A stretch of 32,336 nucleotides of DNA from Herpetosiphonaceae bacterium (GCA_036374795.1 DASUTC010000086.1:1-32336); one strand, 5' to 3'. Shown: positions 178 through 22,728, numbered from the stretch's first letter. Notes: generated by a model from the sequence alone, not told the origin. Numbers and translations are program-made.

Positions 178-3100
178 TCAGCGCAACTGCTTGAAGATCT
201 GCGAGATCCGCCGTCCGACCGACACCGGAAACTCCTTGAGGTCGTTGATCTGCACCCAGTTGCCCGGCCCATAGAGTTCGTCCATCTGCTGCGCCGGCGC
301 GCGGGCACCCAAAAAGATCCCGAAGGTCACCACGCCATTCCGCCGTGCCTCCTTCAGGATCGCAACGGCCTCCTGATGGTCACCAAGCGATCCATCGCTG
401 AGCGCCACGAAGAGCTTATTGCCTTCCTCCCGCGCCCGCAAGGCGTGCGTCGCCAGGCCAGCCGTTCCCGCCATGTGCGTCCCGCCCCGATCACCCGCGG
501 CCAGCATGGCAGACCGCTCTGGGTCAAAGCGTGGATCACCCATCGACTTAAACTGCGCGTCGTCCGACCCAAAGCCGCGCACCTCGTGCGCGATCGCCAG
601 GTCATCAAACGTGTCGCTCAGGATCATCGTCGCGTCGAAGAGCGACGCATTCTGGATCAGCGTCGCCATACTGCCCGACAGATCCACCGCCACGCTCGCG
701 GCGAACGCCGTCGCCGGCAGCTCTTTGATCCGGGTTTTGACATCCTCCGCGCCTTTGACCGCCGCCACAAAGCGCCGCCGGTCGATCCGGCCTTCCTTTT
801 GAAAGCGCAGGCGCTGCTCCGTCTGCTCGCGAATCGCCTTGAGCTGCCTGGCCAGATCCCGCGCAATCTCCCGATGCCTGGACCGGCGCCGCTCCAGCGA
901 GTCGTTGAGCGGCGCATTGCCACTCTTCGGCGTGGCGACCGGCACCGTTTCGACGCGCCCATCCGGGGTTTTGTAGCGTTGGCGGGTTGCTGCGCGATCG
1001 TCCATCGGCCGGTGGAGATCGCGGCCCAGGGCCTCGGGCGTTGCCGCCGCGCGGACGCCTTCTTCGATTGCATGCGCCGCGGCGGCTTCGACCTCGGCGA
1101 CCGCGTCGGCGATCTGGGCCTCGGTAAACGGCGAGTCCCAATCGCGGAGCTGCCCGCTGCCACCCTGGACGCTGGCCCGACCACCCCGCCCGGCCTGCCC
1201 GGTCGAGCCGGACACCGTTCCCCCGTCATCGGAGAAGAACCCGTCGTCGCCGTCGCCGCCGCCGACATACGGATCGCCATCGGCCCACGGGTCCCCATCA
1301 TCGTCGTCGTCGTCGTCCCCAGCACCACCACGACCGCGGCCGGTGCCCGTCGCATCCTCCTCAGCACGCGAACCGGCGCCACCGCCAGCCGGGTCCTCGG
1401 GCGCGCCGGGTTGGGCGGGCGCCGCAGCGCCGTCATCCGTGCCACCCGGTCCCCGACCGGTACCGGGTTCGTCGTCCTCAGCGGTCCGACCCTGGCCACC
1501 CCCGGCCCCATCGTCCTCGGCCGCTGCGGGACGCCGCTCGGTTGGCGCGTCATCATCCGCGCTTGCCCCACCTCGGCCCGTTCCGGTTTCATCGTCCTCT
1601 GCCTTCCGACCGCCGCCGCCACTGCCGCTGGCCTCGTCCTCGGCCGCCGCCGGACGTCGTCCCGTCGGCGCGTCGTCCTCAGCCGCTCCCGATCCACGCC
1701 GGCGACCACCGGTGGCGTCGTCCGCATCCTGGCTACCCTGCCCGCGCCCACCACCGGTTTGGCCAGACGGTTCGCTGCCTGGTTGGCCGCCCTGCTGCCC
1801 ACCTTGCTGCCCGCCGGATGGTCCCCCAGACGAAGCGCCGGATTGACCACCGGATTGTCCGCCCGCCTGGCCGCCTTGCTGTCCACCGGCTTGTCCACCG
1901 GATTGCCCGCCCGACTGACCACCTGACTGCCCACCTTGCTGCCCGCCCTGTTGGTTGCCCTGCTGCTGGCCACCTTTGGGCTGGCCCCCTTCATAGGTCA
2001 CGCCGCCGCTGAAGGTCGCCTGGCCGCCCCCCTGCTGTCCATCCAGGGCATCGGCGTTTTTGATCGTGACGTGCCCCGTAAACTCGACGTCGACCTCCGG
2101 ACCACCACCACCCCCGCCGCCCATCTCCCTGGCGTCGATCACCTGATCGCCGTCGATCGTGATCTTGGGCCGGCGGGCCTTCGTCCCTGGGGGCGGTGGC
2201 GGTGGCGGCGTCATGCCGCGTCGTTTGGCCTCGTCATGATCGACGATCCCCTCCTCTTCCAGGCGCCGGGCAATGATCACCGCGGCGGCGAACGCATCGT
2301 CGGTCGAGCCACGCACCGCCTGCTGCACGAGGGGGCGCAGCTCCTCGAACAGCCGCCGCGCCCGGGGCGATAGCCGCTCCTCGACGACCTCGGGTCGCAC
2401 CCGGTAGTAGGGCAGCGCCTCATACAAGAGCGCGCCGGTCAGATCGCCGTAATCGTCGCGCTGCTCCCCTGGCTCCCAGTGCCAGCGGTCTTCCAGCCGG
2501 CAGCTCGCCGCCAGGATCTCGCCCGCGCCGGGATAGGTCCGCGCCACCTCGCGCTCCATGCGGCCGTCTTCCACGATGTTATAGATCTGCGGCAGAAACC
2601 GCCGCCCCGCGTCGAGGGTGAGCGTGCCGCCCGTGGACGTTGCAAAGTCGACCGGCGTCTCGCTCGTGTGCGCTTCGAGCACCGCCGCCCACAGCTCCGG
2701 CGGCGTGAACTGCTCATGCCCGATTTCGTGGTACAGCCCCGCGCGGGTGACGATCAGGTTATCCCGTGGATCGGCGTTGGGGCCGAGCGGCGTCGGGTCG
2801 GCCATGATCTTGCCGCGCATATCGGTGGCAAAGCCGCTCGTGAGGTACCGTTGCTCCCCGGTCGCCGGGTTGACGTGGAGCGCGCCCGGCCGTAAGTAGA
2901 CCCGGCGCGGCTGACCGACCAGGCCGCTACACAGCCGGCTGTACAGATCTTCCAGGTGCTTGTTATCGACCGGGCTGACGTCGTCGTCGAGGTGCCGGGC
3001 GGCCTCGGCGATCGTCTTGGGTTTCGGATTGCCGTCCCGGTCCAGGCCCTGGCGGTTGTAGCCATCCCGATCGTACCCCTGCCGATCATAGCCGAAGACA

Positions 3101-5313
3101 TCGTAGCCTTCCCGCGTGTAGCCCTGCCGGTCCTGCCCCGCCCGGTTATAGCCCTGCCGGTCATAGCCGTCGGCATCGAACCCCTCCTGATTGTACCCGC
3201 CCCACTGGTAGGTCGGATCGTAGTCGGGCTTGCCCGGCACGACCACCAGCGCATTCTGCGACAGCACCAGCCCCGAGACGTAGGTGCGGACCCCGGCTGC
3301 TTGCGCCGGGAACGACGGGCAGCGGTGATCCGTGCCGTTGGTGAACTGCCCGCAGTGCGGACACTTCAGCAGCACGCCGTTCCGGCACGCCTTGGCGTCG
3401 AAGCGCGCCCGCGCCATCGCCCAGCGTTGCTCCGGCTGCGGATGCTGGATCTGCTGCTCCTGGGTTTTCGCCCGCTCATCCGTCTGCTGCACGGTGTAGG
3501 GATGGCCGGTCACGTTGCCCTGCGCGCGGCGGTAGTCGGCGTAGGTCATGTCCGCGTGGGGCGTGACCGGCGGGCCTGCTTGGGTGCGCCGCTGCGGCTG
3601 CCCCGGGTCTTGCCCATAGCGATCGTTCCCCCGGATCACCACCCCGCGTTTCTTCCAGCGATCCCAGAAGAACGACCCCGGGCTGTAGGCGCCGCCCTCG
3701 CCAGTGTGGGGCACCCGGTACGCCGGATCGGCCGGGTCGGAACATTCCTGCGTCGCCGGGTCATAGATCCAGCCCCAGGGGTTGCGCTGCACGCCCTGGG
3801 CGTCGGGCGCGGTCAGGCCGGTCTTGCGGTGATAGCCCCAGCGATCGAAGCCGGCTTTGTCCCAGCCCGATTTGTTGTAGGTGGCTTCGACCAGATGGCC
3901 CTTCCGGTCGGTCGTCATCCGCGGCTGGCCGTTCCGATCCAGACCGTTTTTGTCGTAGCCGGTCCAGCTGAAGCCCTGCGCGTCAAAGCCCTCGGGGTCG
4001 TAGCCCGCGCGATTCCGCGGCACGCCGTCCGGTCCCGGCTTGAATCCGGCCCGATCGTAGCCGTCGCGGTCGAGGCCGTCCGCGTTCAGGCCCTGCTTGG
4101 TGAACCCGTTGCGATCGTAGCCCGCGCTGTTGTATCCGCTGCGATCGAAGCCGTAGCGGTCCCGCCCCTGGGCGTCATAGCCATCCGGCCCACAGCCCCA
4201 GGCATCCAGGCCGTCGCCATAAATCCCATGGGCATCAGGCTGCCACTGCGGGTGGAACTGGCCCTGCCGGTCCTTCCCCGCGCGGTCGTAGCCGTTGCGA
4301 TCGTAGCCCTGCGCGTCATAGCCCTCCTGGTCGTAGCCGTCCCGGTCGCGCAGCACGTGCGCCACATCCAGCCGATACCCCTCTTTGGTCCACCCGTGGG
4401 CATCCTTGCCGTCGCGGGTGTACCCGGCGGTGTTCAAGTCATTCCGGTCATAGCCATTGGCGTCATAGCCGTGGCGGTTATAGCCCGCTTGAAAGCCGCT
4501 CGCCTCATAGCCCTCGCGGTCGCGGCCCTTGCGATCAAAGCCCTCGCGATCAAAGCCCTCGCGATTGTAGCCCTCGGCGTCGTAGCCGTTGCGGTCGTAT
4601 TTCGGCTTGGGCCGCGGACACACATGCGCCAGCGTCAGGCTTTGGAAGCGCTGGCAGTGGGGACAGCGCGTCAGGCCCCCCGCTTCGCAGACGGCAGTGG
4701 CAAACCGGACGGCGACCTTGTGGTACGTCGAATAGCCACGAAAGCCGATGGCGGCACCCAGGATCTCCTGCGGCAACGTGCTGTCGTTGGACCAAGTTGC
4801 TGCAAGCGCCGTGAGGTGCTCAAAATCCCGATTGCCGTGCGGTCCCTGGCGAAAGGTGTACGCATCCGCCGCAAGTTCGATTAGTTCCGGGCAGGCCGCG
4901 AGCGCGGCTCGCGCGGCGTCGCGGGCGGCCTCCGGCACCACCGGCGCGGTCGCTGCCGGGGTGGATGGCGGCGCGGCGGCCATCGCCAGAACCGGCTGGA
5001 CCGGCTGGGCCGGACCACTGCTTAACCACCCGCGCTGTTTGAGGAGATCGTACACGGCGGCGTAGCCCGGCTGCGACTCCCGTCGAGGCAGCCCATCCGC
5101 TGCATGCGTCGGCGGCTTGTAGCCCGCCTGCTGCATTGCCACAAACAGCGCGCGCGTTTTGGCCTCCGCCGTCAGTGCCGCGTGCTGATCCGCTGGCTGC
5201 CTGCGCCGGGCCTGATACAGTTGCTCCAGGTCGGCCACCCCCACGCCCGCGCCCGCGCCCACTCCGGCGACGACGTGCTGAAAGTATTTGGTACGATTTC
5301 CGTCGCAGGACAT
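178..5313 (-). CDS. Giant VWA-domain protein with zinc knuckles, YDRxG pentads and an HExGH motif (1711 aa)
   Basis: Seen, in order: an N-terminal domain of about 95 residues beginning MSCDGNR and shared with the AAA+ protein encoded upstream; a Cys/His knuckle at about 217-235 (CPHC...HVCP); about forty pentads of the type YDRNG/FDAQG at about 237-501; a second knuckle at about 647-668 (CPHCGQF...HRCP); about eleven more pentads at 692-764; a metallopeptidase-like HEIGHEQF at about 860 followed by IVEDGRMER at about 909; a Gly/Gln-rich tract (about 1107-1186); Asp-rich linkers (about 1186-1358); a basic helical stretch; and a C-terminal VWA domain with the MIDAS motif DLSGS at about 1541. 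Family knowledge: MoxR/NorQ/CobS-type AAA+ ATPases work with VWA partners such as NorD and CobT. Inference: this is the VWA partner of the AAA+ protein. The ATG at 5313 was chosen because it aligns with the MSCDGNR start of the AAA+ protein and follows the same GAAAGG leader; the open frame reaches 5412. Substrate and role are unknown. Confidence 0.85.
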   Translation of the reverse strand: MSCDGNRTKYFQHVVAGVGAGAGVGVADLEQLYQARRRQPADQHAALTAEAKTRALFVAMQQAGYKPPTHAADGLPRRESQPGYAAVYDLLKQRGWLSSGPAQPVQPVLAMAAAPPSTPAATAPVVPEAARDAARAALAACPELIELAADAYTFRQGPHGNRDFEHLTALAATWSNDSTLPQEILGAAIGFRGYSTYHKVAVRFATAVCEAGGLTRCPHCQRFQSLTLAHVCPRPKPKYDRNGYDAEGYNREGFDREGFDRKGRDREGYEASGFQAGYNRHGYDANGYDRNDLNTAGYTRDGKDAHGWTKEGYRLDVAHVLRDRDGYDQEGYDAQGYDRNGYDRAGKDRQGQFHPQWQPDAHGIYGDGLDAWGCGPDGYDAQGRDRYGFDRSGYNSAGYDRNGFTKQGLNADGLDRDGYDRAGFKPGPDGVPRNRAGYDPEGFDAQGFSWTGYDKNGLDRNGQPRMTTDRKGHLVEATYNKSGWDKAGFDRWGYHRKTGLTAPDAQGVQRNPWGWIYDPATQECSDPADPAYRVPHTGEGGAYSPGSFFWDRWKKRGVVIRGNDRYGQDPGQPQRRTQAGPPVTPHADMTYADYRRAQGNVTGHPYTVQQTDERAKTQEQQIQHPQPEQRWAMARARFDAKACRNGVLLKCPHCGQFTNGTDHRCPSFPAQAAGVRTYVSGLVLSQNALVVVPGKPDYDPTYQWGGYNQEGFDADGYDRQGYNRAGQDRQGYTREGYDVFGYDRQGYDRDGYNRQGLDRDGNPKPKTIAEAARHLDDDVSPVDNKHLEDLYSRLCSGLVGQPRRVYLRPGALHVNPATGEQRYLTSGFATDMRGKIMADPTPLGPNADPRDNLIVTRAGLYHEIGHEQFTPPELWAAVLEAHTSETPVDFATSTGGTLTLDAGRRFLPQIYNIVEDGRMEREVARTYPGAGEILAASCRLEDRWHWEPGEQRDDYGDLTGALLYEALPYYRVRPEVVEERLSPRARRLFEELRPLVQQAVRGSTDDAFAAAVIIARRLEEEGIVDHDEAKRRGMTPPPPPPPGTKARRPKITIDGDQVIDAREMGGGGGGGPEVDVEFTGHVTIKNADALDGQQGGGQATFSGGVTYEGGQPKGGQQQGNQQGGQQGGQSGGQSGGQSGGQAGGQQGGQAGGQSGGQSGASSGGPSGGQQGGQQGGQPGSEPSGQTGGGRGQGSQDADDATGGRRRGSGAAEDDAPTGRRPAAAEDEASGSGGGGRKAEDDETGTGRGGASADDDAPTERRPAAAEDDGAGGGQGRTAEDDEPGTGRGPGGTDDGAAAPAQPGAPEDPAGGGAGSRAEEDATGTGRGRGGAGDDDDDDDGDPWADGDPYVGGGDGDDGFFSDDGGTVSGSTGQAGRGGRASVQGGSGQLRDWDSPFTEAQIADAVAEVEAAAAHAIEEGVRAAATPEALGRDLHRPMDDRAATRQRYKTPDGRVETVPVATPKSGNAPLNDSLERRRSRHREIARDLARQLKAIREQTEQRLRFQKEGRIDRRRFVAAVKGAEDVKTRIKELPATAFAASVAVDLSGSMATLIQNASLFDATMILSDTFDDLAIAHEVRGFGSDDAQFKSMGDPRFDPERSAMLAAGDRGGTHMAGTAGLATHALRAREEGNKLFVALSDGSLGDHQEAVAILKEARRNGVVTFGIFLGARAPAQQMDELYGPGNWVQINDLKEFPVSVGRRISQIFKQLR

Positions 5314-5340
5314 TGCTCCATTGACCTTTCGCTTCACTGA
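5314..5340 (-). promoter_or_regulatory. Leader and ribosome binding site of the VWA gene
   Basis: The minus strand of 5322-5339 reads CAGTGAAGCGAAAGGTCA, identical to the leader at 9188-9205 before the AAA+ gene. GAAAGG is the likely Shine-Dalgarno sequence, and a GGAG also lies just before the ATG. The match helps fix the start at 5313. Confidence 0.55.
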
Positions 5341-5426
5341 CTGCCTACCCGACCGCGGCAGGGCCTCGCCGGTCCACCGCCGTGCGCCCCCTACCCACAC
5401 CGGCGGCGTCATGGTACGATACCGCC

Positions 5427-5666
5427 ATGCTGGATACCGAGCTTGAAACCCTGGCCCGGCGGGCCTTTCCCGACGCCACCCAGATCGTCATCCTGGCCGC
5501 CAGCGATCCGGGCTGGACCCTGTTTCAGGACGCCGACGCTGCCTTGGAGGCCGCCGGGATCGCCGCGACGAGTTGGAATCCCACCACCGGGGTCCTCTAT
5601 CTCCGCCGCCTCCCGACTGCCCGCGGACCTGGCCCGACGCCACCATCCGCTCCCGGCGCCACCTGA
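5427..5666 (+). CDS. Small hypothetical protein (79 aa)
   Basis: This frame sits in the 402-bp gap between the two giant minus-strand genes, divergent from the VWA gene and convergent with the AAA+ gene. It reads MLDTELETLARRAFPDATQI onward and ends in a Pro/Gly-rich tail. TACGAT at 5415-5420 lies 6 bp before the ATG, so a leaderless transcript is possible. I do not recognise a family. The composition of the first 60 residues is protein-like rather than a shadow, but the high GC makes chance frames common, so it remains tentative. Confidence 0.4.
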   Translation: MLDTELETLARRAFPDATQIVILAASDPGWTLFQDADAALEAAGIAATSWNPTTGVLYLRRLPTARGPGPTPPSAPGAT

Positions 5667-5715
5667 TGGATGCGTGGCGCACCGGAGCCGCAGCCGTCGG
5701 CGCGTCCCTACCGGG

Positions 5716-8700
5716 CTAATCCTGCGCCGGTGCCGACCGGCTGAGGGCCTCGCCGTCGTCGCCGAAGTGGCGGGCGAAGGTTTCCTGCACCAGACGCCAC
5801 TGTTCTTCAAACGTGTCATCTTGATCGCAAAGTATTTTTAGAATCTCCAACGCCGAGAGCCAGCCTTGGGTCTTGCCAAGCGCCATGAACCTATTCAGCC
5901 GACGGGGACCCGGCGCGGTCGGCGTATCGCTGTTCAGGCCCAGCTTCCGCCCACCCCCAAAGCCACTGGCTAATTGGGTTAACTCGGAAAAGAAGCGAAC
6001 CGCCGCCGCTTTTTCCGCCGCGCTTGGGATGAGCGCCTGGCCACTCGGAATCCCGTAGGTGGTGGCCAGGATCTGCTGCCGCCGCCGTTCGTTGTCCGCC
6101 GCCGTGGTGCTCCCGCCGGTGTCTGGCGTGCCGAACTGCGCGAAGAACGCGTCGATCCGCCCCTCCTGTTCTTTCGCGCTCGGCGCGCCCAGGTGCAGCG
6201 GAATAATCCGCTCCAGCGGCGCCTGCGCCGGACGGTCGGGATCGCCCTCGTTGCCCGGGTTCCAGGTCAGCACAAACACCGTCGAGGGATGGACCGGCAC
6301 CTTGATCAGGTCGCCCGTCTCCGGACTGTTGACGTGGATCTCGCCGTCTTCCAGCATCGCCTGGAGCGCCGTCGCCAGCTTGGGATTGCGCACGATCTCG
6401 TTGACGCAGATCACCGAGCCCATTGCCGCGGCCAGGCCGATCTTGCCGAGCGCGACTTTCGACACCGTCGCGCCAGATTGCGGGTCGGTCGTCAGGATCG
6501 TCGTGCCGATCATCTCGTCCATCGACGATTCCGGGGTGATGTTCACCTCGGCGTAGTTCATGCCCTGGGTGATGGTCCCCGCGCTGTCGCGGGTTTTGAT
6601 CGACGCCGCGAGCTGGCGCGCGGTCGTATTCTTGCCGGTGCCGGGCGGGCCGTAGATGCCAAACGCCCGCGACCAGGTGTTCTGGGCTTTGCCGCCGCCG
6701 AGCTGGAGCATCGCCGACATGGTGCGCAGAATCTTCTCGGTTTGCTCGTTGATCGCGAAGTTCGGATCGACGTCCGGTACCCATTCGGTCAGCGGCCGGT
6801 CGAGATCGCCGCCGACGGCGCGCGGCACGTTGGTCAAGAAGGGATCGGGCGCGTCGAGGACCACCAGGTCCACAATATGTTCCTGCGCTGTTTTCGGACG
6901 GGTGATGTCGATCGGCTTCCCCGCCGTGCGCACGCGCGGCCCGGTGCGGTCCTCTGACTGTGCCGCCGGGCGCGCCGTGGTTGGATCGTCCGCCTGCGCC
7001 ACGCGCCGCCGCCGTCCCCCATCCTCGCCGACGGGCAGGCCCGGCCCATTCGCCGCGACGGCCTGCATCGCCGCCGCCAGCTCACGCAGCGCCGCGCCCA
7101 CCTCCGAGAGATCTGCCGAGGTGGTCGCCTGCGTTGCTGCCGCCGGGGCGATGGTCCGCAGATTGGTCGCCAGGGCTGCGGCAAAGGCGTCGGCATCCAG
7201 GGGCACCGTGACGTCGATCTTCGGCTCGACCGTGACGGTGATCGGCGGCGTTTCCGCCGGCGTCTGGGTCGGGTCCAGCTTTGCCGCAACCGTGACGTTC
7301 GGAGATCCGAGCGTGACGTTGGGGGCGGCAACATCGAGCTGGGGCGCAGCACCATGCACATCCACCTGGGGTTGGACGACCAGGGGCTGGGCGGGATCGG
7401 CGCTGGGTGGTTGTGGCGCCGTGGCACCCAACGCGGGTGCCGGTGCTGCCACATCGGCTGCCGGCGCGACCACCTCGCCGACCGGTTCGGTCCCTGCTCC
7501 ATCTGCCAGAATCGGCGCATACGGGTCGGTAGGGGTGTCGTAGTAGCCCGTAGCAGGGTTGACACCACCCGTTGCCGGATCGAAGGAAGCCGCCGGATCT
7601 GGGGCAGCAGCACCCGAGGCTGTCGCCGACGGCTGGTTCGCGCCTGTCGATGGACAGGCATGCGCGTCACCCATAAATTGCCCGCACGCGGGACACTGCT
7701 GGGTGCCGACCTGGCCACCAAAGTGAATCGTCCCGCCACCCGCCAGGGGGCCATTCTTGAGCGCGATATAGGCCCCATCCGCAGCCGCAAGCGGCTCGCC
7801 CGTGCCCTGCTGCGCGCGAATCAGGTCGTTGGCGAGCGCCACATCCGAGGCCGTTTGCGGATGGAGCGCCAGGTACGCGATCACGGCGGCGACCTGCGCG
7901 GCAGAGGCGTTGGTCGAGCCCTGGGTGTCGCCGACGGTATTCGTCGCAGGATCGTACACGCTGAGCAGCTGCCCGCGGCCTTTGGTGTACACCTCCACCG
8001 TCCCATCGCTCGTTTCGACGACCTCGCCGTCGAGGAGTACGCCCACGGCCGCATACGTCGTGCGGCCCACGCCAACACTTGGGTTCTGCGGGTTCGGATT
8101 GCGCTTGGTGGCCCCGGGCACGGGCTCCACACCACTCTGCCGGGCACTGCCCCATGCCTGGGGCGTGGTGACCCGTTGACCGACCGTGTAGGTTGTGCCC
8201 TGGACCGTAATGGGCGTCCCCAGCGCGTCCGTTTTGCGATACTCGGTGCCGACGAAGTGACCCAGGTCATATGCCTGCCCGCCCGTCACGCTCGTGGTGG
8301 CTGCCGCCGCCACCGAATGCGCCGCAAACCTGGGCAGCGTGGTCGCCGTGCCGGGAACGGTTCCCATCGGGATCTGCCGCCCGTACGCCTGCGCGGCCTG
8401 CCCGATCGCCGTCGGCGCGACCGCCACGCGCTGCAAGCCGGTGGCATCGAAGACCGGCACGACGCGCCCGCCGGGGGCTGCGGCCAGCGTGAAGCCGCGC
8501 TCGCTCCGAAACCAATCGGGCAGAAAGCCGCCGCCGAGCGCCTGGGGCAGCCCATCCAGCGACACGGCAACCTGTTCACCGCTCACGCCGTGCGCCATCT
8601 GGATCGGGCCTTGCCTGGCCTGCTCGATCAGCTTCGCCAGGACGCCATCGGGATAGGCGGTCGCTGGGACACGGAGTCGCCGCCGCAGCGTGCGAGTCAA

Positions 8701-9180
8701 CGCCTCAGGCGTGGCGGTCTGGGGACACAGGTGCCCGCCCTGAGCCTTCACAAACTGCCCACAGCTGGTGCAGTGCAGGCGTCCGATCGCGTTCAGGCCG
8801 CGCGCGTCGATCGTCCGCTGCTCCTGTCTCGCCACCAGGACCTGGCGCGCGAGCGGCGGCAGCGTCTGCCCACGTTTGAGCGCTTCCAGGGTGTGAAAGA
8901 CGACATGATAGCCGCGCTGCGCATCCGCGCGCGGCAGGCCGGACTGGGAGTGCGTGGGCGGCTTCAGTTCAGCGGCCCGCATCTGGGCAAAGAGCGCGCG
9001 GGTGCTGATCTCCGCCAGCTTGGGCAGCTGTGCATCCGTCACCGGCTGACTGCGTGCCGTCGCGAAGATCTGTTCCAGCGCCGCCTGCGCTTCGTCCGCT
9101 CCGCCAAATGCGGCCGCAGCGGCACTCCCTGGTGCGCAGACGTGGGCAAAGAATTTATTCCGATTTCCGTCGCAGGACAT
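5716..9180 (-). CDS. MoxR/NorQ-like AAA+ ATPase with N-terminal MSCDGNR domain and zinc knuckles (1154 aa)
   Basis: Residues 1 to about 95 match the N-terminus of the VWA protein (MSCDGNR, then TRALF..M..A..KPPTH...GLPR). Cys/His knuckles lie at about 134-153 (CTSCGQF...HLCP) and about 492-513 (CPACGQF...HACP). A long Ala/Pro/Val-rich linker follows. The C-terminal AAA+ module has Walker A GPPGTGKN (about 842-852), a Walker B-like segment VICVNEI (about 920) and a sensor-1-like stretch VFVLTWNPGN (about 970). In family terms this is the MoxR/NorQ/CobS class, which remodels targets together with a VWA partner; the adjacent VWA gene fits. Two Mg-coordinating positions are unusual: Asn replaces Ser/Thr after the Walker A Lys, and Asn replaces the Walker B Asp. 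Activity could be altered, or these may be normal variants in this subfamily. It is probably transcribed from the element at 9329-9414. Confidence 0.87.
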   Translation of the reverse strand: MSCDGNRNKFFAHVCAPGSAAAAAFGGADEAQAALEQIFATARSQPVTDAQLPKLAEISTRALFAQMRAAELKPPTHSQSGLPRADAQRGYHVVFHTLEALKRGQTLPPLARQVLVARQEQRTIDARGLNAIGRLHCTSCGQFVKAQGGHLCPQTATPEALTRTLRRRLRVPATAYPDGVLAKLIEQARQGPIQMAHGVSGEQVAVSLDGLPQALGGGFLPDWFRSERGFTLAAAPGGRVVPVFDATGLQRVAVAPTAIGQAAQAYGRQIPMGTVPGTATTLPRFAAHSVAAAATTSVTGGQAYDLGHFVGTEYRKTDALGTPITVQGTTYTVGQRVTTPQAWGSARQSGVEPVPGATKRNPNPQNPSVGVGRTTYAAVGVLLDGEVVETSDGTVEVYTKGRGQLLSVYDPATNTVGDTQGSTNASAAQVAAVIAYLALHPQTASDVALANDLIRAQQGTGEPLAAADGAYIALKNGPLAGGGTIHFGGQVGTQQCPACGQFMGDAHACPSTGANQPSATASGAAAPDPAASFDPATGGVNPATGYYDTPTDPYAPILADGAGTEPVGEVVAPAADVAAPAPALGATAPQPPSADPAQPLVVQPQVDVHGAAPQLDVAAPNVTLGSPNVTVAAKLDPTQTPAETPPITVTVEPKIDVTVPLDADAFAAALATNLRTIAPAAATQATTSADLSEVGAALRELAAAMQAVAANGPGLPVGEDGGRRRRVAQADDPTTARPAAQSEDRTGPRVRTAGKPIDITRPKTAQEHIVDLVVLDAPDPFLTNVPRAVGGDLDRPLTEWVPDVDPNFAINEQTEKILRTMSAMLQLGGGKAQNTWSRAFGIYGPPGTGKNTTARQLAASIKTRDSAGTITQGMNYAEVNITPESSMDEMIGTTILTTDPQSGATVSKVALGKIGLAAAMGSVICVNEIVRNPKLATALQAMLEDGEIHVNSPETGDLIKVPVHPSTVFVLTWNPGNEGDPDRPAQAPLERIIPLHLGAPSAKEQEGRIDAFFAQFGTPDTGGSTTAADNERRRQQILATTYGIPSGQALIPSAAEKAAAVRFFSELTQLASGFGGGRKLGLNSDTPTAPGPRRLNRFMALGKTQGWLSALEILKILCDQDDTFEEQWRLVQETFARHFGDDGEALSRSAPAQD

Positions 9181-9207
9181 GGAGCACTGACCTTTCGCTT
9201 CACTGGC
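9181..9207 (-). promoter_or_regulatory. Leader and ribosome binding site of the AAA+ gene
   Basis: The minus strand of 9188-9205 reads CAGTGAAGCGAAAGGTCA, an exact 18-nt match to the leader of the VWA gene. GAAAGG is the likely Shine-Dalgarno sequence for the ATG at 9180. Confidence 0.5.
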
Positions 9208-9292
9208 ACCGTCGGCTCATACGGATGACCGACCATGGGATGATCCGGTGGGTATGCGAGGATCAGGAGGTCCACGCCTGCCGTCAAGCGAG

Positions 9293-9304
9293 AGGTGTAC
9301 ACCT
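9293..9304. promoter_or_regulatory. Perfect 12-bp palindrome AGGTGTACACCT
   Basis: This self-complementary 12-mer lies in the predicted 5' untranslated region of the AAA+ gene, about 25 bp downstream of the -10-like box. It has the size of a dimeric regulator's operator; no regulator can be assigned. Confidence 0.35.
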
Positions 9305-9310
9305 GTGCAA

Positions 9311-9331
9311 CTGACGGCACCCCTCCGTCAG
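9311..9331 (-). promoter_or_regulatory. Inverted repeat overlapping the start of the AAA+ transcript
   Basis: CTGACGG and CCGTCAG form a perfect 7-bp inverted repeat with a 7-nt loop. It abuts the TATGCTG box, so it could be an operator over the transcription start or a 5'-end hairpin in the mRNA. Confidence 0.4.
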
Positions 9332-9414
9332 CATAGCAAGCCTGGGCGGAGCGGATTACTCGTTATCTGCCAACTTTCCCTGTCGGTGGGCTATGCCGGA
9401 ACCAGGACCGTTGG
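9329..9414 (-). promoter_or_regulatory. Promoter-like element of the AAA+/VWA operon (copy B)
   Basis: On the minus strand this reads CCAACGGTCC, 31 bp, TTGGCAGATAA, 27 bp, TATGCTG. The same boxes, with the same 31-bp spacing, lie before the first parB gene at 30157-30243. A shorter version precedes the 137-aa gene at 30788-30832. TATGCT is a plausible -10; no standard -35 is evident at 17 bp, which suggests an activator. The AAA+ start codon lies about 150 bp downstream. Confidence 0.55.
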
Positions 9415-9700
9415 TGGCGATGATCGATACAGTGAGCGAAGCGATGGGTGGGAGGGACCAGCGGGCGGCACGATGGGGTCTGCGCACTGAGGCAGGGGGG
9501 AGATCGGGTCCAGCCCATCGTTGCCATTGTTGGCAACAAAGACGGTCACCCTATGCAGCGCGATCCGATCGCTCACGTTCGATCCCATGGCGCCGGGACG
9601 CATAGCTGTGATCAGCATGGGCGGATGCCGGCGAAGGTCGATCACGAGCCGCCGTGCCGGGTCCAGGCGGGAAGGATACTGAGCCAGATTCAGGCATGCG
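9415..9700. other. Intergenic region without a supported gene
   Basis: This lies between the promoter element of the AAA+ gene and the stop of the serine hydrolase gene. A 122-aa minus-strand frame (9391-9759) crosses it but overlaps both the promoter element and the hydrolase gene, and shows no domain. Nothing else was recognised. Confidence 0.35.
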
Positions 9701-10780
9701 CTATGGCTCAGGTGCCTGCCCGCCCGTGTCAGCACCGCCCGGCCCCGCCTCCGCTCCAAACATTGCTGCCGCCAGCGCGTCCGCTACCGAGTCGGGATCG
9801 CAGGTTTGCAGATTACACAGCACCGCGATACAGACCTGCGCATCGGGATAGCGCGCCAGCAGCACGCGGAAGCCATCGATCCGCCCGCCGTGATAGACCA
9901 CGCGCCGCCCGAAGCGCACGCCGATCTGCCAGCCGTAGCCGTAGCTCGAGCCGTCGCCGACCGGCACATGCGGCGTAAACATGGCCGCGAGCGACGGCTG
10001 TGTCACCAGCACACGATCCCAGCGCAGCAGATCCTCGACCGTGGAATACAGCCCACCCGCTGCGTACGGGTCTTCGAGATCCAGGAACGAGGCGTTGACC
10101 AGCGTACCATGCTCGATCGCGTAGCTCGCGGCGCGCAGGGGCAGCACCGCCTTGCGATCGACGTAGCCGCTGCTCGTCATCCCCGCCGGAGTCAACACAT
10201 GGCGCTGCACAAACACCGCATAGGGCAGCCCCGACACCTGCTCGATCACGTAGCCGAGCAGCATATAGCCCCAGTTGCTGTACACAAAGGTCGTGCCGGG
10301 CGTAGCGGCGAGCGGCCTTGCGCCAAAGAGTTGCTGCAAGGCGGCGGGCGTGATCGGTCCCGGCTGCGCCGGATCGATGCAGTGCGGCCAGAACGGGAGA
10401 TCGGGAATGCCCGATGTATGCGTGAGGAGCTGGTGGATCGTCACGTCTTGCCACGCAGGTATGCCGGTCGGCACCAGGCTGTTGAGCGCGGCGTGAACCT
10501 GGAGCCTGCCCTGCTCCTGTACGATCAGGATCGCCAGGGCCGTGAACGGCTTGGTGATCGACGCGATCGGGAACTTTGTCTGCGGCGTGTTGGGCGTCGA
10601 CTGCTCGATGTTGCCCAGGCCATAGCCGCGACAGATGAGCGGGCTGCCGCCCCGCGCGACCAGCACCGCCCCGCTGAACTCGCCGCGCTCGGCACGCCTC
10701 GCGAGCGACGCCTCCACCGCCGCGAGCATCGCCGGTGGTCCGTCGGATTGCGCAGCCGTGTGTTGGTCCGATCCGGTCAC
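9701..10780 (-). CDS. Serine hydrolase, class C beta-lactamase/DD-peptidase family (359 aa)
   Basis: Seen: the catalytic tetrad S-x-x-K as SITK at about residue 74, YSN at about 167 and the HGG box (YHGGRIDGF) at about 297, in the order and spacing of the Pfam Beta-lactamase family (AmpC, EstB, D-aminopeptidases). The motif QLLTHTSGIPDLP typical of this family is also present. No signal peptide is evident, which suggests a cytoplasmic esterase or peptidase rather than a secreted resistance enzyme (inference). I chose the GTG at 10780 because AGGAGG lies 8 nt upstream and a TATACT box lies further upstream; ATG at 10828 and GTG at 10864 are in-frame alternatives. It is divergent from the STAND regulator. 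The exact substrate cannot be told from sequence. Confidence 0.85.
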   Translation of the reverse strand: MTGSDQHTAAQSDGPPAMLAAVEASLARRAERGEFSGAVLVARGGSPLICRGYGLGNIEQSTPNTPQTKFPIASITKPFTALAILIVQEQGRLQVHAALNSLVPTGIPAWQDVTIHQLLTHTSGIPDLPFWPHCIDPAQPGPITPAALQQLFGARPLAATPGTTFVYSNWGYMLLGYVIEQVSGLPYAVFVQRHVLTPAGMTSSGYVDRKAVLPLRAASYAIEHGTLVNASFLDLEDPYAAGGLYSTVEDLLRWDRVLVTQPSLAAMFTPHVPVGDGSSYGYGWQIGVRFGRRVVYHGGRIDGFRVLLARYPDAQVCIAVLCNLQTCDPDSVADALAAAMFGAEAGPGGADTGGQAPEP

Positions 10781-10816
10781 TCCTGCGACCTCCTGCGGTA
10801 TCGCGCGACGAGCACC

Positions 10817-10822
10817 AGTATA
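10817..10822 (-). promoter_or_regulatory. -10-like box before the serine hydrolase gene
   Basis: The minus strand reads TATACT, about 37 bp before the chosen GTG start and upstream of the AGGAGG ribosome binding site. No good -35 hexamer is seen 17 bp upstream. It supports the shorter start because the longer frames begin at or before this box. Confidence 0.4.
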
Positions 10823-10906
10823 GCCCATCGCCTTGCAGATCTGGCGGGGTTGGGTAAGATACACCTGCGATCGGGAGCGTCATCGCCCGACCGCTAGATT
10901 AAGTGT

Positions 10907-13708
10907 ATGAGCACCACACACCAGCCCTTCAGCCACATGCTGGGCGACGCCATACGCCGCGCCCACGCCAGCGTTGTGCAACTTCATGCGCTGACCGATA
11001 TTCCGCTTGAGACGATCAAGAACTGGCTCGACGGGCGCGCGCTGCGTCCTCGGCGCTGGCAGGATGTGATCAAGCTCGCGGCGGCGCTGCACCTGACGGT
11101 GCGCGAGACCAACGAGCTGCTGCACGCCGCGCGGCACCCGCCGTTTCATACGCTGCCACTGAACGAACTTGCGGACAGCTACCCGGATCTGCTGGCCCGC
11201 TGGTACGCCGGCCGGCATATCCAGGGCCTGGGCGGAGTGGGATCGCGCGTCGATGGCGGCGTGCTGTCCGCCGCGCAGGCCCTGCTGGCGACAGTGCCCA
11301 CGCAGGCCCTGCCGCCGATCGCGCCGCTCCCGCCGGGGTCGCGCATGTTCCTGACCCCGAACCCATGCTTTGTTGGCCGGGCCGAGGCGCTGCTCGCCGT
11401 GGCCCGCGCGCTCGTCCGCCAGCCAGCCAGTGGGATGGGAGCCGTAGCTGCGGCGACCGGCTTAGGCGGCATCGGCAAGACCCAGCTCGCGACCGAGTTC
11501 GTCCACCGCTACGGGCAGTTCTTTGCGGGCGGCGTCTTCTGGCTCAGCTTCGCCGATCCGTCCGCAGTTGCCGGCGAGGTCGCGGCCTGCGCCGGGAGCG
11601 CCCATCTCGACCTGCACCCGAACGTTGCTCAGCTCGCGCCCGACGATCAGGTCGCGCTCGTGCGCGCCGCCTGGCAGAGTCCGCTGCCCCGGCTGCTGAT
11701 CTTCGACACCTGCGAAGATGAGCATCTGCTCGCGCGCTGGCGACCGGCCTGTGGCGGCTGCCGCATCCTGATCACCAGCCGCCGCGCACTGTGGGACAGC
11801 ACCATGCAGGTTCATATACTGCCGCTCGATGTGCTGCCGCGCGCCGACAGCATCGCCCTGCTGCGGCAGCACCGCCCGGACCTCTCCCCCAGCCTGGACG
11901 TTCTCGACGAGATCGCCGCCGAGCTGGGCGATCTTCCGCTGGCGCTCCATCTTGCCGGGGCGTATCTGGCGCGCTATCGATCCGACCTGACGCCGACCGA
12001 GTACGTCGCCCAGCTCCGCCAGCCGACGCTCTTGCGGCACCCGTCGCTCCGGGGCCAGCGCGTCTCGCCGACCGGCCATGTCCAGCATGTCGCGCGGACC
12101 TTCGCCCTGAGCTATGAGCGCCTCGATCCTACGGATGCCGACGATCAGGTAGCGCGGCGGCTGCTGGCCGGTGCGGCCTGCTTCGCGCCCGGCGAGGCGA
12201 TCCCGCGCCCGCTGCTGCGCTCTACCCTCCAACACACTGCCGAGGCGATCTCACCACTGGATGCCGCCGCCGCCCTTGACCGCCTGATCGATCTGGGCCT
12301 GCTCGAAGCGGTGGGCCGCGACGCCCTGCGGATGCATCGCCTGCTCCGTCTGTTCATCCGGCAGCAGCAGACCGATCCGCAGGCCCAGGCCGCCGTCGAG
12401 GAGGCGCTCCTGGCGTTCGCCGCGCCCGTGAACGCCGCCAGCGAGCTTGCGCCGCTCGTCGGCATCCAGCGCCACCTGCGCTCGGTCGTCGATGCCGCGA
12501 TCGAGCGGCGGGACGCGCGGGCCGCCGATCTGTGCGAGGCGCTGGGCCATCACCTCTGGCTCAGGAGCGATGCCGAGGCCGCGCGCCACTACCTGGAGCA
12601 GACCCTCGCGATCCGCGAGGACGGCAAGCTGCGCTCGGTCGAGCAGCTCGCCGATAGCTGTAATCTGCTCGGCCTGATCCACCACATGCGCGGCGACTTT
12701 CCGCGGGCGCGGCACTTCATGCAGCGGGCGCTCGCGCTCTGGGAGGCGCATCTGCCGCCCGACCATCCGCATATCGCCGTGGCGCACGAAAATCTTGGCG
12801 TCTTGCTGAGCCTGCTGGCCGAGGACGATGCGGCCCACGCCCATCTGCGCCATGCCTTCCGGCTGCACCGGCGGCGCTGGGGCTATCGAGCACCGCAGAC
12901 CGCCCGTGCGCTCGCCAATCTGGGATCGTTCTTTTTGGAGCAGGGCCGCTACCGCCGCGCCCGGCTCTACCTGACGCGCGCGCTCGCCATCCGCGAGCAG
13001 GTCTTACCGCCGAGCCATATGTCCACCGCGCAGACCCTGAGCAGCCTCGGCGATCTGCGGTATGCGCAGGGCCACTACGCCGAGGCGTCATCTTACTACG
13101 AGCGCGCGCTGGCGATGCGGCTGGCCGTGTTCGGCCCGCAGCACCCGGATGTCGCCGAGAGCTGGGCCAGCCAGGGCCGCGTGGCGCTGGCGCTGGGCGA
13201 CATCGACCGGGCACGCGATCTGCTGGAGGCGGCGCTCGATCTCCAGGTCGCGACGCTCGGCCCCGATCATGTCGAGGTCGCGGCCCGCCTCGACGGCCTG
13301 GGCCTGGCGTATCTGGCGCAGGGCGATGCCGCCACCGCCCGATCGTATGTCGAGCGCGGGCTTCAGGTGCGCGCGCACCGCTACGGGCCGCAGCATCCGT
13401 TCACCGCGCGCTCGCTGCGCAGCCTGAGCCGCTGCGCGCTGGCTGAGCGTCACAGCGCTGAGGCGCAGGCGTTGATCGAGCGGGCAATCGCCATCCAGCG
13501 GCACACGCTCGACGCGGCGCATCCCGATCTGGCGAGCAGCCTGCTGCTGCTGGGCGAGATGCTCCACGATCAGGGACTCCCGGAGCAGGCGCTGGCGGTC
13601 ACCCGGCAGGCCGCTGCCATCGCTGAGCGTCGGCTGGGCCTGCGCCATCCCCTCACGCAGCAGGTGCAATCCCACCTGAGTATCCTCCAACCTGCCGGCT
13701 CCCACTGA
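10907..13708 (+). CDS. HTH-NB-ARC-TPR STAND-family signalling protein (933 aa)
   Basis: The N-terminus (about 10-80) resembles an XRE-type helix-turn-helix (ALTDIPLETIKNWLDGRALR...). An NB-ARC NTPase follows: P-loop GLGGIGKT at about 185-192, a Walker B-like LLIFDTCEDE at about 263, a sensor-like CRILITSRR at about 286 and the GLPLA-type motif DLPLALHLAG at about 343. A winged-helix-like region is followed, from about 590 to the end, by TPR units of about 42 residues of the kinesin-light-chain type. Family knowledge: STAND proteins are NTP-dependent switches that oligomerise when the repeat domain senses a ligand; with an HTH they usually act as regulators, and related ones serve in antiphage defence. 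It lies between a divergent hydrolase and the dpp operon, so local control of those genes is possible (inference). A TAGATT box lies just before the ATG. Confidence 0.88.
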   Translation: MSTTHQPFSHMLGDAIRRAHASVVQLHALTDIPLETIKNWLDGRALRPRRWQDVIKLAAALHLTVRETNELLHAARHPPFHTLPLNELADSYPDLLARWYAGRHIQGLGGVGSRVDGGVLSAAQALLATVPTQALPPIAPLPPGSRMFLTPNPCFVGRAEALLAVARALVRQPASGMGAVAAATGLGGIGKTQLATEFVHRYGQFFAGGVFWLSFADPSAVAGEVAACAGSAHLDLHPNVAQLAPDDQVALVRAAWQSPLPRLLIFDTCEDEHLLARWRPACGGCRILITSRRALWDSTMQVHILPLDVLPRADSIALLRQHRPDLSPSLDVLDEIAAELGDLPLALHLAGAYLARYRSDLTPTEYVAQLRQPTLLRHPSLRGQRVSPTGHVQHVARTFALSYERLDPTDADDQVARRLLAGAACFAPGEAIPRPLLRSTLQHTAEAISPLDAAAALDRLIDLGLLEAVGRDALRMHRLLRLFIRQQQTDPQAQAAVEEALLAFAAPVNAASELAPLVGIQRHLRSVVDAAIERRDARAADLCEALGHHLWLRSDAEAARHYLEQTLAIREDGKLRSVEQLADSCNLLGLIHHMRGDFPRARHFMQRALALWEAHLPPDHPHIAVAHENLGVLLSLLAEDDAAHAHLRHAFRLHRRRWGYRAPQTARALANLGSFFLEQGRYRRARLYLTRALAIREQVLPPSHMSTAQTLSSLGDLRYAQGHYAEASSYYERALAMRLAVFGPQHPDVAESWASQGRVALALGDIDRARDLLEAALDLQVATLGPDHVEVAARLDGLGLAYLAQGDAATARSYVERGLQVRAHRYGPQHPFTARSLRSLSRCALAERHSAEAQALIERAIAIQRHTLDAAHPDLASSLLLLGEMLHDQGLPEQALAVTRQAAAIAERRLGLRHPLTQQVQSHLSILQPAGSH

Positions 13709-13723
13709 CCCGAAATCGGGTCA
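13706..13723. promoter_or_regulatory. Perfect inverted repeat between the STAND gene and the dpp operon
   Basis: TGACCCGA and TCGGGTCA are separated by AA and overlap the stop codon of the STAND gene. No T run follows, so an operator for the dpp operon is as likely as a weak terminator. The dppB start lies 51 bp downstream. Confidence 0.45.
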
Positions 13724-13774
13724 TTCGCCCCCCGGTCTGTTGGGTATCCTCGTGTCTATGTTCAGGAGATTCGT

Positions 13775-14857
13775 ATGAAGGCTGTGCCTGCTTCCACCAC
13801 CATCCTGAGCCGGGGACGAACGCGCATGGCGATCGCGCGCGCCGCGTCCCATCCGATCCTGCGGAGTCTGCTCAAGACCGCTATCATCCTGTGGGTCGTC
13901 GTCACCCTCACCTTTCTGGTGATTCGGGCGCTCCCCGGCAACCCGGTCGATATTTTCGTCCAACAGTTGATCACGAGCGGCCTCTCCGAGGAGCAGGCGC
14001 GCGCGCGGGCGGCGGGCCTGCTGCGGATCGATCTCGACCAGCCGCTCCGCGCGCAGTACCTCGACTTTCTCCGCAACCTCGCGCGCGGCGACCTCGGCGA
14101 CTCGTACGTGCTGGCGCGGGGCACGTCCGTGCGCCAGATCGTGATGCAGCGGCTGCCCTGGACCCTGTTCAGCGTGGGCACGTCGCTGCTGGTCAGCTTC
14201 GCGCTGGGCAGCTTCCTGGGCATGCTCGCCGCCTACCGGCGCGGCTCGTGGCTGGATCACGCGCTGACCACGCTGAGCGCGATCCTCGACGCGGTGCCGC
14301 CGATTCTGATCGCCGTGCTCTGCGTGCTGCTCATCGGCGTGCATTGGAAGCTGCTGCCGCTCGATCAGCTGCGCGGCTCGCGCTCGCCGGGGATCAGGCC
14401 CGGCTTCACGCTGGCGTTCTTCGTCGATCTCATCAGGCATGTGCTGGCTCCCGGCGCGGTCTATGTGCTGTCGACGCTGGGAAGCTGGATTCTTGCCATG
14501 CGCAGCAGCACGCTCGGCACGCTCGGCGAGGAGTACGTGACCGTCGCGCGGGCGCGCGGCCTCTCCGATCTACGAATCATGACCGCCTACGTCGGGCGCA
14601 ACGCGAGCCTGCCGCTCGTCACCGGCCTGGCGATCTCGCTGGGCTTTGCCGTCGGCGGCGCGATCGTGATCGAGCAGGTCTTCGTCTACCAGGGCGTGGG
14701 CCTGCTGCTCAGCCAGGCCATCGCCCGGCGCGACTATCCGGTGATCCAGGGCGTTCTGCTGGTGACGACGATCACCGTGCTGCTCGCCACGGGCCTGGCC
14801 GATCTGCTCTATAGCTGGCTCGATCCGCGCGTGGGCACGCCTGGGAGGGACCAATGA
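13775..14857 (+). CDS. dppB: Peptide/nickel-type ABC transporter permease, DppB-like
   Basis: This 360-aa membrane protein has an N-terminal helix after a basic stretch (LLKTAIILWVVVTLTFLVIRALPGNP), the PGNP signature of DppB/OppB permeases, a long extracytoplasmic segment and about five further helices. The permease coupling loop, EEYVTVARARGLSDLRIMTAYVGRN, sits at about 250-275. It should form the membrane channel with the DppC-like partner. AGGAG lies 6 nt before the ATG. The stop overlaps the next start as ATGA, showing a tight operon. The substrate (oligopeptide, dipeptide or other) is not determined by sequence. Confidence 0.93.
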   Translation: MKAVPASTTILSRGRTRMAIARAASHPILRSLLKTAIILWVVVTLTFLVIRALPGNPVDIFVQQLITSGLSEEQARARAAGLLRIDLDQPLRAQYLDFLRNLARGDLGDSYVLARGTSVRQIVMQRLPWTLFSVGTSLLVSFALGSFLGMLAAYRRGSWLDHALTTLSAILDAVPPILIAVLCVLLIGVHWKLLPLDQLRGSRSPGIRPGFTLAFFVDLIRHVLAPGAVYVLSTLGSWILAMRSSTLGTLGEEYVTVARARGLSDLRIMTAYVGRNASLPLVTGLAISLGFAVGGAIVIEQVFVYQGVGLLLSQAIARRDYPVIQGVLLVTTITVLLATGLADLLYSWLDPRVGTPGRDQ

Positions 14858-15695
14858 GCCGCCTGCGGCTGCTGGCGCGCAGCCCCTCCGGCCTGCTCGG
14901 CGCGACATTGCTGGCGGCGCTCGTGCTGCTGGCCTTCGTCGGGCCGCTGGTGGTGCCGCCCGAAGCCCGCGCGCACGTCGAGCGGATCTACCAGGGGCCG
15001 TCGCCGCAGCACGTGCTCGGCACCGACTTCCAGGGCCGCGACAATCTGGTGCTGCTAATCCACGGCGGTCGCGACGTGATCCTGCTGGCGTTCACTGCCG
15101 GGCTGCTGACCACGCTGCTCGCCTGCACGATCGGCGCGATCGGCGGCTTCGTGGGCGGCGCGGTTGACCGTCTGCTGATGACGATCACCGACATCTGGCT
15201 GACGCTGCCGCGCTTTCTGCTGCTGGTCGTGCTCGCCAGCCTGGTGCGGCTCGACGATGTGTGGTCGCTGGCGCTGCTGCTGGCGCTCTTCGGCTGGCCC
15301 GGCCTGGCGCGGCAGGTGCGGGCGCAGGTGCTCTCGCTCACGCGGCGCGCGTACGTCGAGGCCGCGCGGCAGCTCGATCTCGGCACGCCGCACATCATCT
15401 TCCGCGAGATCCTGCCAAACATGCTGCCCTTTATCTCGATCGCGCTGATCGGGACGATGACCCAGGCGATCTACGCGCAGACCGGCCTGGTCTTTCTCGG
15501 CATCGTGCCCTTCGGCAACACCTGGGGCGTGCTCTTCAGCCTGGCCTACGCCAAAAACGCGATCTACCTGCCGCGCGCCGCGTGGAGCCTGCTCTGCCCG
15601 ATGGCCGCGATCATCCTGTTTCAGCTTGCGCTGGTGTTGCTGGCGCGCGCGCTGGAGGCGGTCTTCAACCCGCGCCTGGGGACAGGAGGCGCGTC

Positions 15696-15699
<4 letters not shown>
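14854..15699 (+). CDS. dppC: Peptide-type ABC transporter permease, DppC-like
   Basis: This 281-aa protein has a first helix near the N-terminus, the sequence HVLGTDFQGRDNLVLLIHGG typical of DppC/OppC, and a coupling loop YVEAARQLDLGTPHIIFREILPN, followed by NMLPFISIALIG. It pairs with the DppB-like permease. Start and stop overlap the neighbours by 4 bp (ATGA) on both sides, so translation is probably coupled. Confidence 0.93.
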
Positions 15700-16713
<1,014 letters not shown>

Positions 16714-16739
<26 letters not shown>

Positions 16740-17742
16740 TCGCGTCAGCCGCTCGTTCGCCGTCAAGCGCCGGACGATCACCGCTGTGGACGATCTCTCG
16801 CTGGCGATCGACGCGGGCGAGATCCTCTGTCTGGTCGGCGAGTCCGGCTGCGGCAAGACCACGACGGGCAAGCTGATCGCCGGGCTGCTCGCGCCGAGCG
16901 CCGGGACGATCCGCTTCCGAGGCAGTGACATTGCCCGCCTCTCAGGCGCGCAGCGCCGCGCGTACCGGCTGGGCGTGCAGCTGATCCACCAGGACCCCTA
17001 CGCCGCGCTCAATCCCGCGCACACGATCTCCGAGACGCTCGCCGCGCCGCTGCGCCATCATCGGCTGACGCGGGGCAGCGCCCAGACGCGGCAGCGCGTG
17101 CGCGAGCTGCTGGAGTCGGTCGATCTGACGCCCGCCGACGATCTGCTTGGCAAATACCCGCACCAGCTCAGCGGCGGGCAGCGCCAGCGCGTGGCGATCG
17201 CCCGCGCGCTGACGGTCAATCCGGCGCTGATCGTCGCCGACGAGGCCGTCTCGATGGTCGATGTCTCGATCCGTATCAGCCTGCTCAAAACGCTGACACG
17301 GCTCACCGAGCGCATGGGCCTGGCGGTGCTGTTCATCACCCACGATCTGGCGCTGGCGACGTATTTTGCATGGCAGGGACGCATCGGCGTGATGTACCTC
17401 GGCAGGCTGGTCGAGCTTGCGCCGACGCCGCTGCTGATCGAGCGTCCGCAGCATCCCTACACGCAGGCGCTGCTGGCGGCGGTTCCTCAGGTCGATCCCG
17501 ATGCGGAGCGCCGCAGGCCGCAGGTCGCGCTGCGCAGCATGGACCTGCCCAGCCTGCTCGATCCGCCAACCGGCTGCCCGTTTCATCCGCGCTGCCCGCG
17601 CTTTGAGGGCGAGATCTGCATGCGTGCTGTGCCGGAGCTGGTGCCGTTTCGCGACGGATCGGCGGTCGCGTGCCATCCGGTCCAGCGCGAGAGCGCAAAA
17701 GCAAAAATCTTATGTCAAGGAGATAGCCATGTTAAGTCCTGA
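16714..17742 (+). CDS. dppF: ABC transporter ATPase, DppF/OppF-like (342 aa)
   Basis: Walker A GESGCGKT, Q-loop LIHQDPYAALNP, signature LSGGQRQR and the ITHD switch are intact. Walker B reads LIVADEAVSMVDVSIR, with Val in place of the usual Pro-Thr-Ser-Ala-Leu context but with the catalytic D-E kept. A C-terminal CPFHPRCPRFEGEIC segment marks the peptide-transport subfamily. I chose ATG 16714, preceded by AAGGAG; the frame is open further upstream. The start lies inside the end of dppD and the end overlaps the small membrane gene. Confidence 0.92.
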
Positions 17743-17914
17743 GCTGGGACGATCCGGCGTGCGGATCGCCACGCTGCTGACGCTGGCCTCGGCGGGGCTG
17801 CTGCTGGCTCAAACGCCCGGCAGCGCCGAGTTCGTGCTGATGGCAACCACGCTGGCGATCGGCGTCGTCTCTCTACTGCTGATCGTCGTGCTGATCAGAT
17901 GGTCCAGCCGCTAA
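17729..17914 (+). CDS. Small two-helix membrane protein in the dpp operon (61 aa)
   Basis: It begins MLSPELGRSGVRIATLLTLA and has two hydrophobic stretches (about 12-26 and 32-56), ending in RWSSR. AAGGAG lies 5 nt before the ATG and the start overlaps the dppF stop by 14 bp, so it is translated as part of the operon. No family is recognised. A transporter accessory subunit or assembly factor is possible (inference). Confidence 0.7.
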   Translation: MLSPELGRSGVRIATLLTLASAGLLLAQTPGSAEFVLMATTLAIGVVSLLLIVVLIRWSSR

Positions 17915-17967
17915 GCGCAGCCGAATCGTTTGTTCGCCCCTGCTGTAGAGCGATTGTGAGGACGTGT

Positions 17968-19818: not shown

Positions 19819-19880
19819 CCTGCCCCGGGCGTGACGCGCGGAGTATGTGGCGCATCACGTCCGGCCCCAGTGAATACCTT

Positions 19881-21023: not shown

Positions 21024-21113
21024 GCGATCGGGTCGAAACTGAGGATGCGATCGACGGTCGTCGCGCGCGTGGTCTGGGTGCCGCCGTCCCACCCATCCAG
21101 CCCTGGAGATTAT

Positions 21114-21797: not shown

Positions 21798-21829
21798 ATC
21801 CGTCTATGCGTTTGGAAAGGTGGTTGAAC

Positions 21830-22720: not shown

Positions 22721-22728
22721 CGGAAAAG

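Follow-up and report, generated by a model that had tools for sequence, protein, structure and literature searches.

Pairs of a MoxR-type AAA+ ATPase and a VWA protein are found on many plasmids and phages without an assigned job. In the NorQ–NorD pair, a finger of the VWA protein is reported to reach into the AAA+ ring; the MIDAS of this protein is indispensable and has been proposed to hold the client by one of its acidic residues, and the use of ATP remodels that client (PMC9976466, PMC13036017). MoxR-VWA genes are also carried by the conjugative elements pCAR1, R478, Rts1, SXT and R391 (PMC2642839). A phage-borne pair in jumbo phages, whose VWA protein bears an N-terminal metallopeptidase, has been proposed to act in virion assembly (PMC7824862). 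For MoxR-vWA ternary systems, it has been proposed that effector-associated domains (EADs), which are helical coupling domains, co-localise the components (PMC7159879).

We have examined a locus of this kind in a stretch of 32,336 nucleotides (the window) from a Herpetosiphonaceae bacterium that belongs to the Chloroflexota, as judged from its relatives. The original prediction, made from the sequence alone, placed here a MoxR-type ATPase and a giant VWA protein with a common N-terminal domain (hereafter the N-domain) and four Cys/His knuckles. Both open reading frames were confirmed as adjacent genes on the minus strand (Table 1). The VWA frame had been listed as 178-5412, with an upstream ATG; homology places the true start 33 codons downstream, at M34 (MSCDGNRTKYF).

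Table 1. Positions of the MoxR-VWA gene pair, its domains and motifs, and the neighbouring element genes in the window.
Feature	Position	Strand	Remarks
VWA/metallopeptidase-like protein	181..5313	-	1711 aa; stop 178-180; all orthologues begin MSC[DE]
MoxR-type AAA+ ATPase	5719..9180	-	1154 aa; stop 5716-5718
N-domain, VWA protein	5017..5313	-	residues 1-99
N-domain, MoxR protein	8836..9180	-	residues 1-115; predicted all-helical, pLDDT mostly >90
VWA knuckle 1	4615..4665	-	residue 217; CPHCQRFQSLTLAHVC / CPHCQRFQSLTLAHVCP
VWA knuckle 2	3316..3363	-	residue 651; CPHCGQFTNGTDHRC / CPHCGQFTNGTDHRCP
MoxR knuckle 1	8722..8772	-	residue 137; CTSCGQFVKAQGGHLC / CTSCGQFVKAQGGHLCP
MoxR knuckle 2	7651..7695	-	residue 496; CPACGQFMGDAHAC / CPACGQFMGDAHACP
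GYDxxG hexapeptide repeats, VWA protein, main block	3679..4608	-	approximate bounds
Metallopeptidase-like domain, VWA protein	2224..2967	-	HEIGHE 2713-2730, EDGRME 2554-2571; assigned from motifs and profile matches
Helical lead-in and C-terminal VWA domain	181..1131	-	MIDAS DLSGS 670-684
AAA+ module, MoxR protein	5719..6783	-	Walker A GPPGTGKN 6628-6651
ParB-like protein 2, element operon	27553..28866	-	true start probably downstream of 28866
ParB-like protein 1, element operon	28794..30074	-	
Insertion between ParB2 and MoxR	9184..27583		~18.4 kb; STAND-TPR, peptide ABC transporter, DDE transposase

Judged by its motifs and profiles, the core of the locus is of a known kind, namely a MoxR-VWA pair whose VWA partner carries a HEXXH metallopeptidase-like domain. 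The MoxR protein has a Walker A motif (GPPGTGKN, residue 844), a Walker B-like motif, VICVNEI, in which Asn takes the place of the usual Asp, and a sensor-1 TWNPG, all present in the orthologues, and it matches AAA_5 above the cut-off (E 1.4e-7). In the VWA protein, the MIDAS reads DLSGS at residue 1544 and D[LMF]SGSM in all five orthologous proteins. The HEXXH motif (HEIGHE, residue 862) and the EDGRME downstream of it, which the original prediction had not mentioned, are invariant across the orthologues in the form HE[ILV]GHE plus EDGRME. By profile comparison, the AAA+ core is related to phage and plasmid CobS/CobT-like proteins (E 3.5e-19), and the VWA core to proteins of a phage, an Aeromonas plasmid and a Miltoncostaea plasmid (E 2.4e-20). 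The HEXXH domain matches the Miltoncostaea plasmid protein (profile E 6e-11) and, weakly, the phage and Aeromonas proteins. Its profile found nothing in the PDB, and AlphaFold modelled residues 770-1711 of the VWA protein with a pLDDT of only 38, so that the assignment of this domain rests on motifs and profiles.

As in the jumbo-phage pair (PMC7824862), the MoxR ATPase adjoins the VWA protein, in which a putative HEXXH domain lies N-terminal to the VWA domain; the N-domain, the knuckles and the GYD repeats set the present pair apart from that one, as far as the accessible description extends. With the conjugative-element pairs (PMC2642839) and those of the Aeromonas and Miltoncostaea plasmids, it has in common that MoxR and VWA genes with related cores sit on a mobile element. 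Unlike here, however, no N-terminal domain is common to the two partners in the Aeromonas and Miltoncostaea plasmid pairs and the one phage pair that were compared. The combination of a MoxR ring with a MIDAS-bearing VWA partner recalls NorQ–NorD, and among PDB sequences the VWA profile matches NorD best, if weakly (E 0.023). In contrast to the present pair, NorQ–NorD belongs to another operon and has another client, and its architecture, as described, is without a common domain. Nitric oxide reductase genes do not lie beside our pair, whose neighbours are ParB proteins and type IV secretion system (T4SS) genes.

The front end of the two proteins, the N-domain, looks to be the new part of the pair. 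The first 99 residues are 45% identical between the partners (pairwise E 6e-22), which bears out the common domain that had been predicted. When searched against databases, as had been suggested, the domain fitted no Pfam, NCBIfam or PDB family at the sensitivity of these searches. Pfam and NCBIfam returned no family save for one weak stray match, and the sequence had no credible match in the PDB. Its AlphaFold model is a compact helical domain, for which comparison with PDB folds gave at best E 0.85 (Foldseek) and Z 3.5 (VIA-align), an absence of match that is not the same as a new fold. Searches of phage and plasmid proteins reached the AAA+, VWA and GYD-repeat parts only, and scans of viral contigs with MoxR, VWA and N-domain found no relative, though the N-domain profile is too variable to suit the scanning tool.

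The knuckles, two in each protein as predicted, have the CCHC form C-x2-C-x2-F-x(4-6)-H-x-C. The spacing from Phe to His is thus 4-6 residues and not the 6-8 given originally, and one knuckle begins with CT instead of CP. Shuffled proteins contain at most ~0.001 such motifs each, and strong matches to a knuckle profile (E <1e-7) in six genomes were confined to the proteins of these elements. The number per VWA protein varies from 1 to 3. In the second MoxR knuckle of two relatives (ZM16-3 and KT5, see below), the His is replaced by Cys with the other putative ligands conserved, a change that fits what a zinc ligand would show. The GYDxxG hexapeptide has about 27 matches across the VWA protein, including a second, short block at ~3018-3225; the VWA protein of one orthologous pair (genome G013) is without GYD repeats. 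Similar repeats are found in phage proteins whose annotation is pentapeptide-repeat or structural (Caulobacter RapA, Rhodococcus E3).

The same two architectures are paired elsewhere. Five pairs that are complete or almost so were found, and in each of them MoxR and VWA both carry the N-domain: the window, a second copy on another contig of the same genome (C347; 86% DNA identity over both genes), G013, Chloroflexales bacterium ZM16-3 (G017) and Anaerolineales UBA6092, where the contig ends within the VWA gene. For KT5, the comparison covered the MoxR gene only. The expectation that homologues would keep the pairing holds for these five orthologous pairs; there are also homologous MoxR-VWA pairs that lack the N-domain, such as those of another Chloroflexota genome (G257) and the Miltoncostaea plasmid. 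As for the claim of an undescribed system, the part that stands is an N-domain that fits no family searched and recurs together with the knuckles in all five pairs; the part that does not is the pair itself, since MoxR proteins with VWA-metallopeptidase partners are known from jumbo phages (PMC7824862), and MoxR-VWA pairs from conjugative elements (PMC2642839). The distribution is patchy: the MoxR profile matches in five of the 158 genomes of the class, and a scan of genome contigs with it gave three loci only.

Two ParB genes head the operon. The order ParB1-ParB2-MoxR-VWA is found in C347, G013 (with other genes between ParB1 and ParB2) and ZM16-3, and ParB2-MoxR-VWA in UBA6092. T4SS genes lie close by, encoding a VirD4-like ATPase (TrwB_AAD_bind, E 1.4e-10) and VirB4-like ATPases, and the ZM16-3 neighbourhood includes two Replic_Relax proteins. 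The pair also marks out a family of T4SS-bearing elements in Chloroflexota, one that did not come up in the library searched.

The shared domain extends beyond the pair: these genomes encode at least four further proteins that carry it, and a host RtcB has it in divergent form. On contig C347 it starts proteins of 397, 1044 (with four knuckles) and 609 residues, the last encoded 87 kb away. In G013, it starts an 803-residue protein carrying a ddrB-ParB domain (E 7e-30), in which the first 332 residues of MoxR recur at 42%. Two genomes from the same genus as the window encode an RtcB ligase (PF01139, E 4e-67) preceded by a diverged N-domain. The extension aligns with the N-domain over 114 columns (hhalign E 6e-10), and the real scores, 34 and 24 bits, compare with a best of 12 among 10,000 shuffles. 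The MoxR profile scan found no MoxR of this type in either genome. The N-domain on RtcB, and on a lone 259-residue protein of another genome (G229), occurs with no MoxR-VWA pair at hand, and hence it cannot serve the pair alone. Since related pairs without the N-domain also exist, we regard the N-domain as an addition to a known pair.

Several further occurrences may be recorded. The two RtcB genes (L100:4552-6303 and L101:6724-8481, both minus strand) are each adjoined by an HNH endonuclease. The lone protein (L075:9923-10702, minus strand) starts MSCDYQRN, has the second half of the N-domain and lies amid housekeeping genes. A contig-end fragment in G079 (L099, ~7800-8799, plus strand) combines a diverged N-domain (lSCDTSARAYC) with a knuckle, CLACGRYVELDGAHTC.

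The sharing of the N-domain is old, because in the tree the VWA copies form one clade with the MoxR copies outside it. The exception is G013, where the N-domains of MoxR and VWA are sisters (100/100) with an insertion in common. They are 55% identical to each other and 26-38% identical to their window orthologues, whereas the remainders of the two proteins are orthologous (49-53%). Constraining the five VWA N-domains to one clade was rejected (p-AU 1e-63). The simplest reading of these sequences is that, in G013, one partner lost its own N-domain and received a copy of that of the other. Such an outcome, here a single event in one element, is what one would expect selection to favour if the partners couple through a common contact.

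It is plausible, as originally suggested, that the two proteins dock on the same target. The explanation we put forward, to which we give about an even chance, is that the pair is a remodelling machine of Chloroflexota conjugative elements, in which the N-domain and knuckles form an element-specific adaptor module that brings the motor, its adaptor and further proteins of the element together in a single complex. By analogy with NorQ–NorD, the MoxR ring would drive its VWA partner, and the MIDAS of the latter may grip the client by one of its acidic residues. Cleavage of that client, or processing of the proteins themselves, may be the task of the HEXXH domain. The N-domain and knuckles would bind one another or a single shared partner, so that the motor, the adaptor, the ddrB-ParB protein and the large helical proteins could assemble. 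Candidate sites for such a complex are ParB-bound DNA, the relaxosome and the secretion channel, a ParB-marked nucleoprotein complex being our first guess. The domain, ~100 residues long and common to both partners, offers a direct handle on pairs of this kind; its binding partner would reveal both the working place of the machine and its client.

The N-domain and knuckles could instead bind nucleic acid, either DNA of the element or an RNA, and bring their carriers directly to the DNA of the element without protein–protein docking. CCHC knuckles are commonly nucleic-acid binders. The two ParB proteins at the head of the operon and the fusion of the N-domain to ddrB-ParB and, distantly, to RtcB RNA ligases are in keeping with this explanation. 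However, the model of the N-domain matched no DNA- or RNA-binding fold, which is weak evidence, and the sister N-domains of G013 are not specifically predicted by it. We consider nucleic-acid binding possible, if somewhat doubtful.

A broader form of the adaptor explanation is also tentative, and we think it rather unlikely. Here, the N-domain and knuckles would be a new coupling code of this family of conjugative elements, joining the AAA+ motor and the VWA/protease adaptor with several proteins of effector or structural function in one assembly, which perhaps travels with the transferred DNA or processes it. Host enzymes such as RtcB would then have captured the domain.

Alternatively, the N-domain might be a secretion tag, with its carriers passing through the type IV channel into the recipient together with the DNA, like polyvalent proteins. 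The domain is N-terminal in position, and the N-domain pairs lie near T4SS genes wherever flanking DNA is present. One carrier is a ddrB-ParB protein of the polyvalent type, and zincins are frequent in the polyvalent proteins that phages and conjugative elements encode (PMC5512222). The proteins studied here likewise are large and multi-domain, with a putative zincin-like domain and, on one N-domain protein, ddrB-ParB; unlike here, a MoxR-VWA pair and an N-domain fall outside that description as far as it was accessible (PMC5512222). A hexameric motor would, however, be an awkward secretion substrate, and the domain is also found on chromosomal RtcB and on the lone protein, whose 15-kb contig has no T4SS genes. 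Such a tag therefore seems improbable.

The resemblance of the N-domain to EADs raises a further explanation, in which the pair would be a MoxR-vWA ternary conflict (defence) system and the N-domain would play the part of the EAD. Both are small, non-enzymatic helical domains with copies on adjacent proteins, and neighbouring copies are sometimes each other's closest relatives; coupling is predicted for EADs (PMC7159879), and such systems occur in Chloroflexota. In contrast to the EAD arrangement (PMC7159879), the N-domain is present on both MoxR and VWA, and no third component (VMAP, iSTAND, FtsH or beta-propeller) was found among the neighbours scanned, those of the second copy and the relatives. 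For the VWA protein, PADLOC returned no significant match, and the setting is one of conjugation and partition. A defence role is thus very unlikely. A last possibility, a cobaltochelatase (CobS/CobT) with which a mobile element would boost cobalamin synthesis, as proposed for tailed viruses (PMC8651126), is barely credible. In its favour, the AAA+ module weakly matches phrog_249 (porphyrin biosynthesis), and the VWA protein weakly matches phrog_1576, to which a phage protein with the annotation CobT is also matched. Nevertheless, it is largely refuted by the absence of CobN/Mg-chelatase large subunit (PF02514) from the window genome (estimated 100% complete; the control search was positive in 5 of 14 genomes), the pair has no Pfam CobS/CobT match up to E 1, and its operon partners are ParB and not cob genes.

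Two loci related to the pair have neighbours of another kind. In G020 (L025:52-644, ~880-2526 and 3430-5070), a VWA gene of a similar kind adjoins an eight-repeat CRISPR array. A MoxR protein nearby starts MSCDYQ, and an N-domain in it is only suggestive (hhalign probability 33%). The pair without the N-domain in G257 (L076:7528-10731, plus strand) lies beside a serine recombinase, HEAT-repeat proteins and an Hsp70-like ATPase, and its VWA protein has HEIRGH, a HEXXXH variant.

Finally, the gap between ParB2 and MoxR holds the inserted DNA in the window and measures <50 bp in the second copy. The cargo of the insertion includes the STAND-TPR gene (10907-13708), the peptide ABC transporter and the DDE transposase (24545-26098). 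A STAND-TPR protein (36% identity) is also encoded between the ParB genes of G013, and the ParB-MoxR-VWA operon may therefore be a hot spot for cargo.
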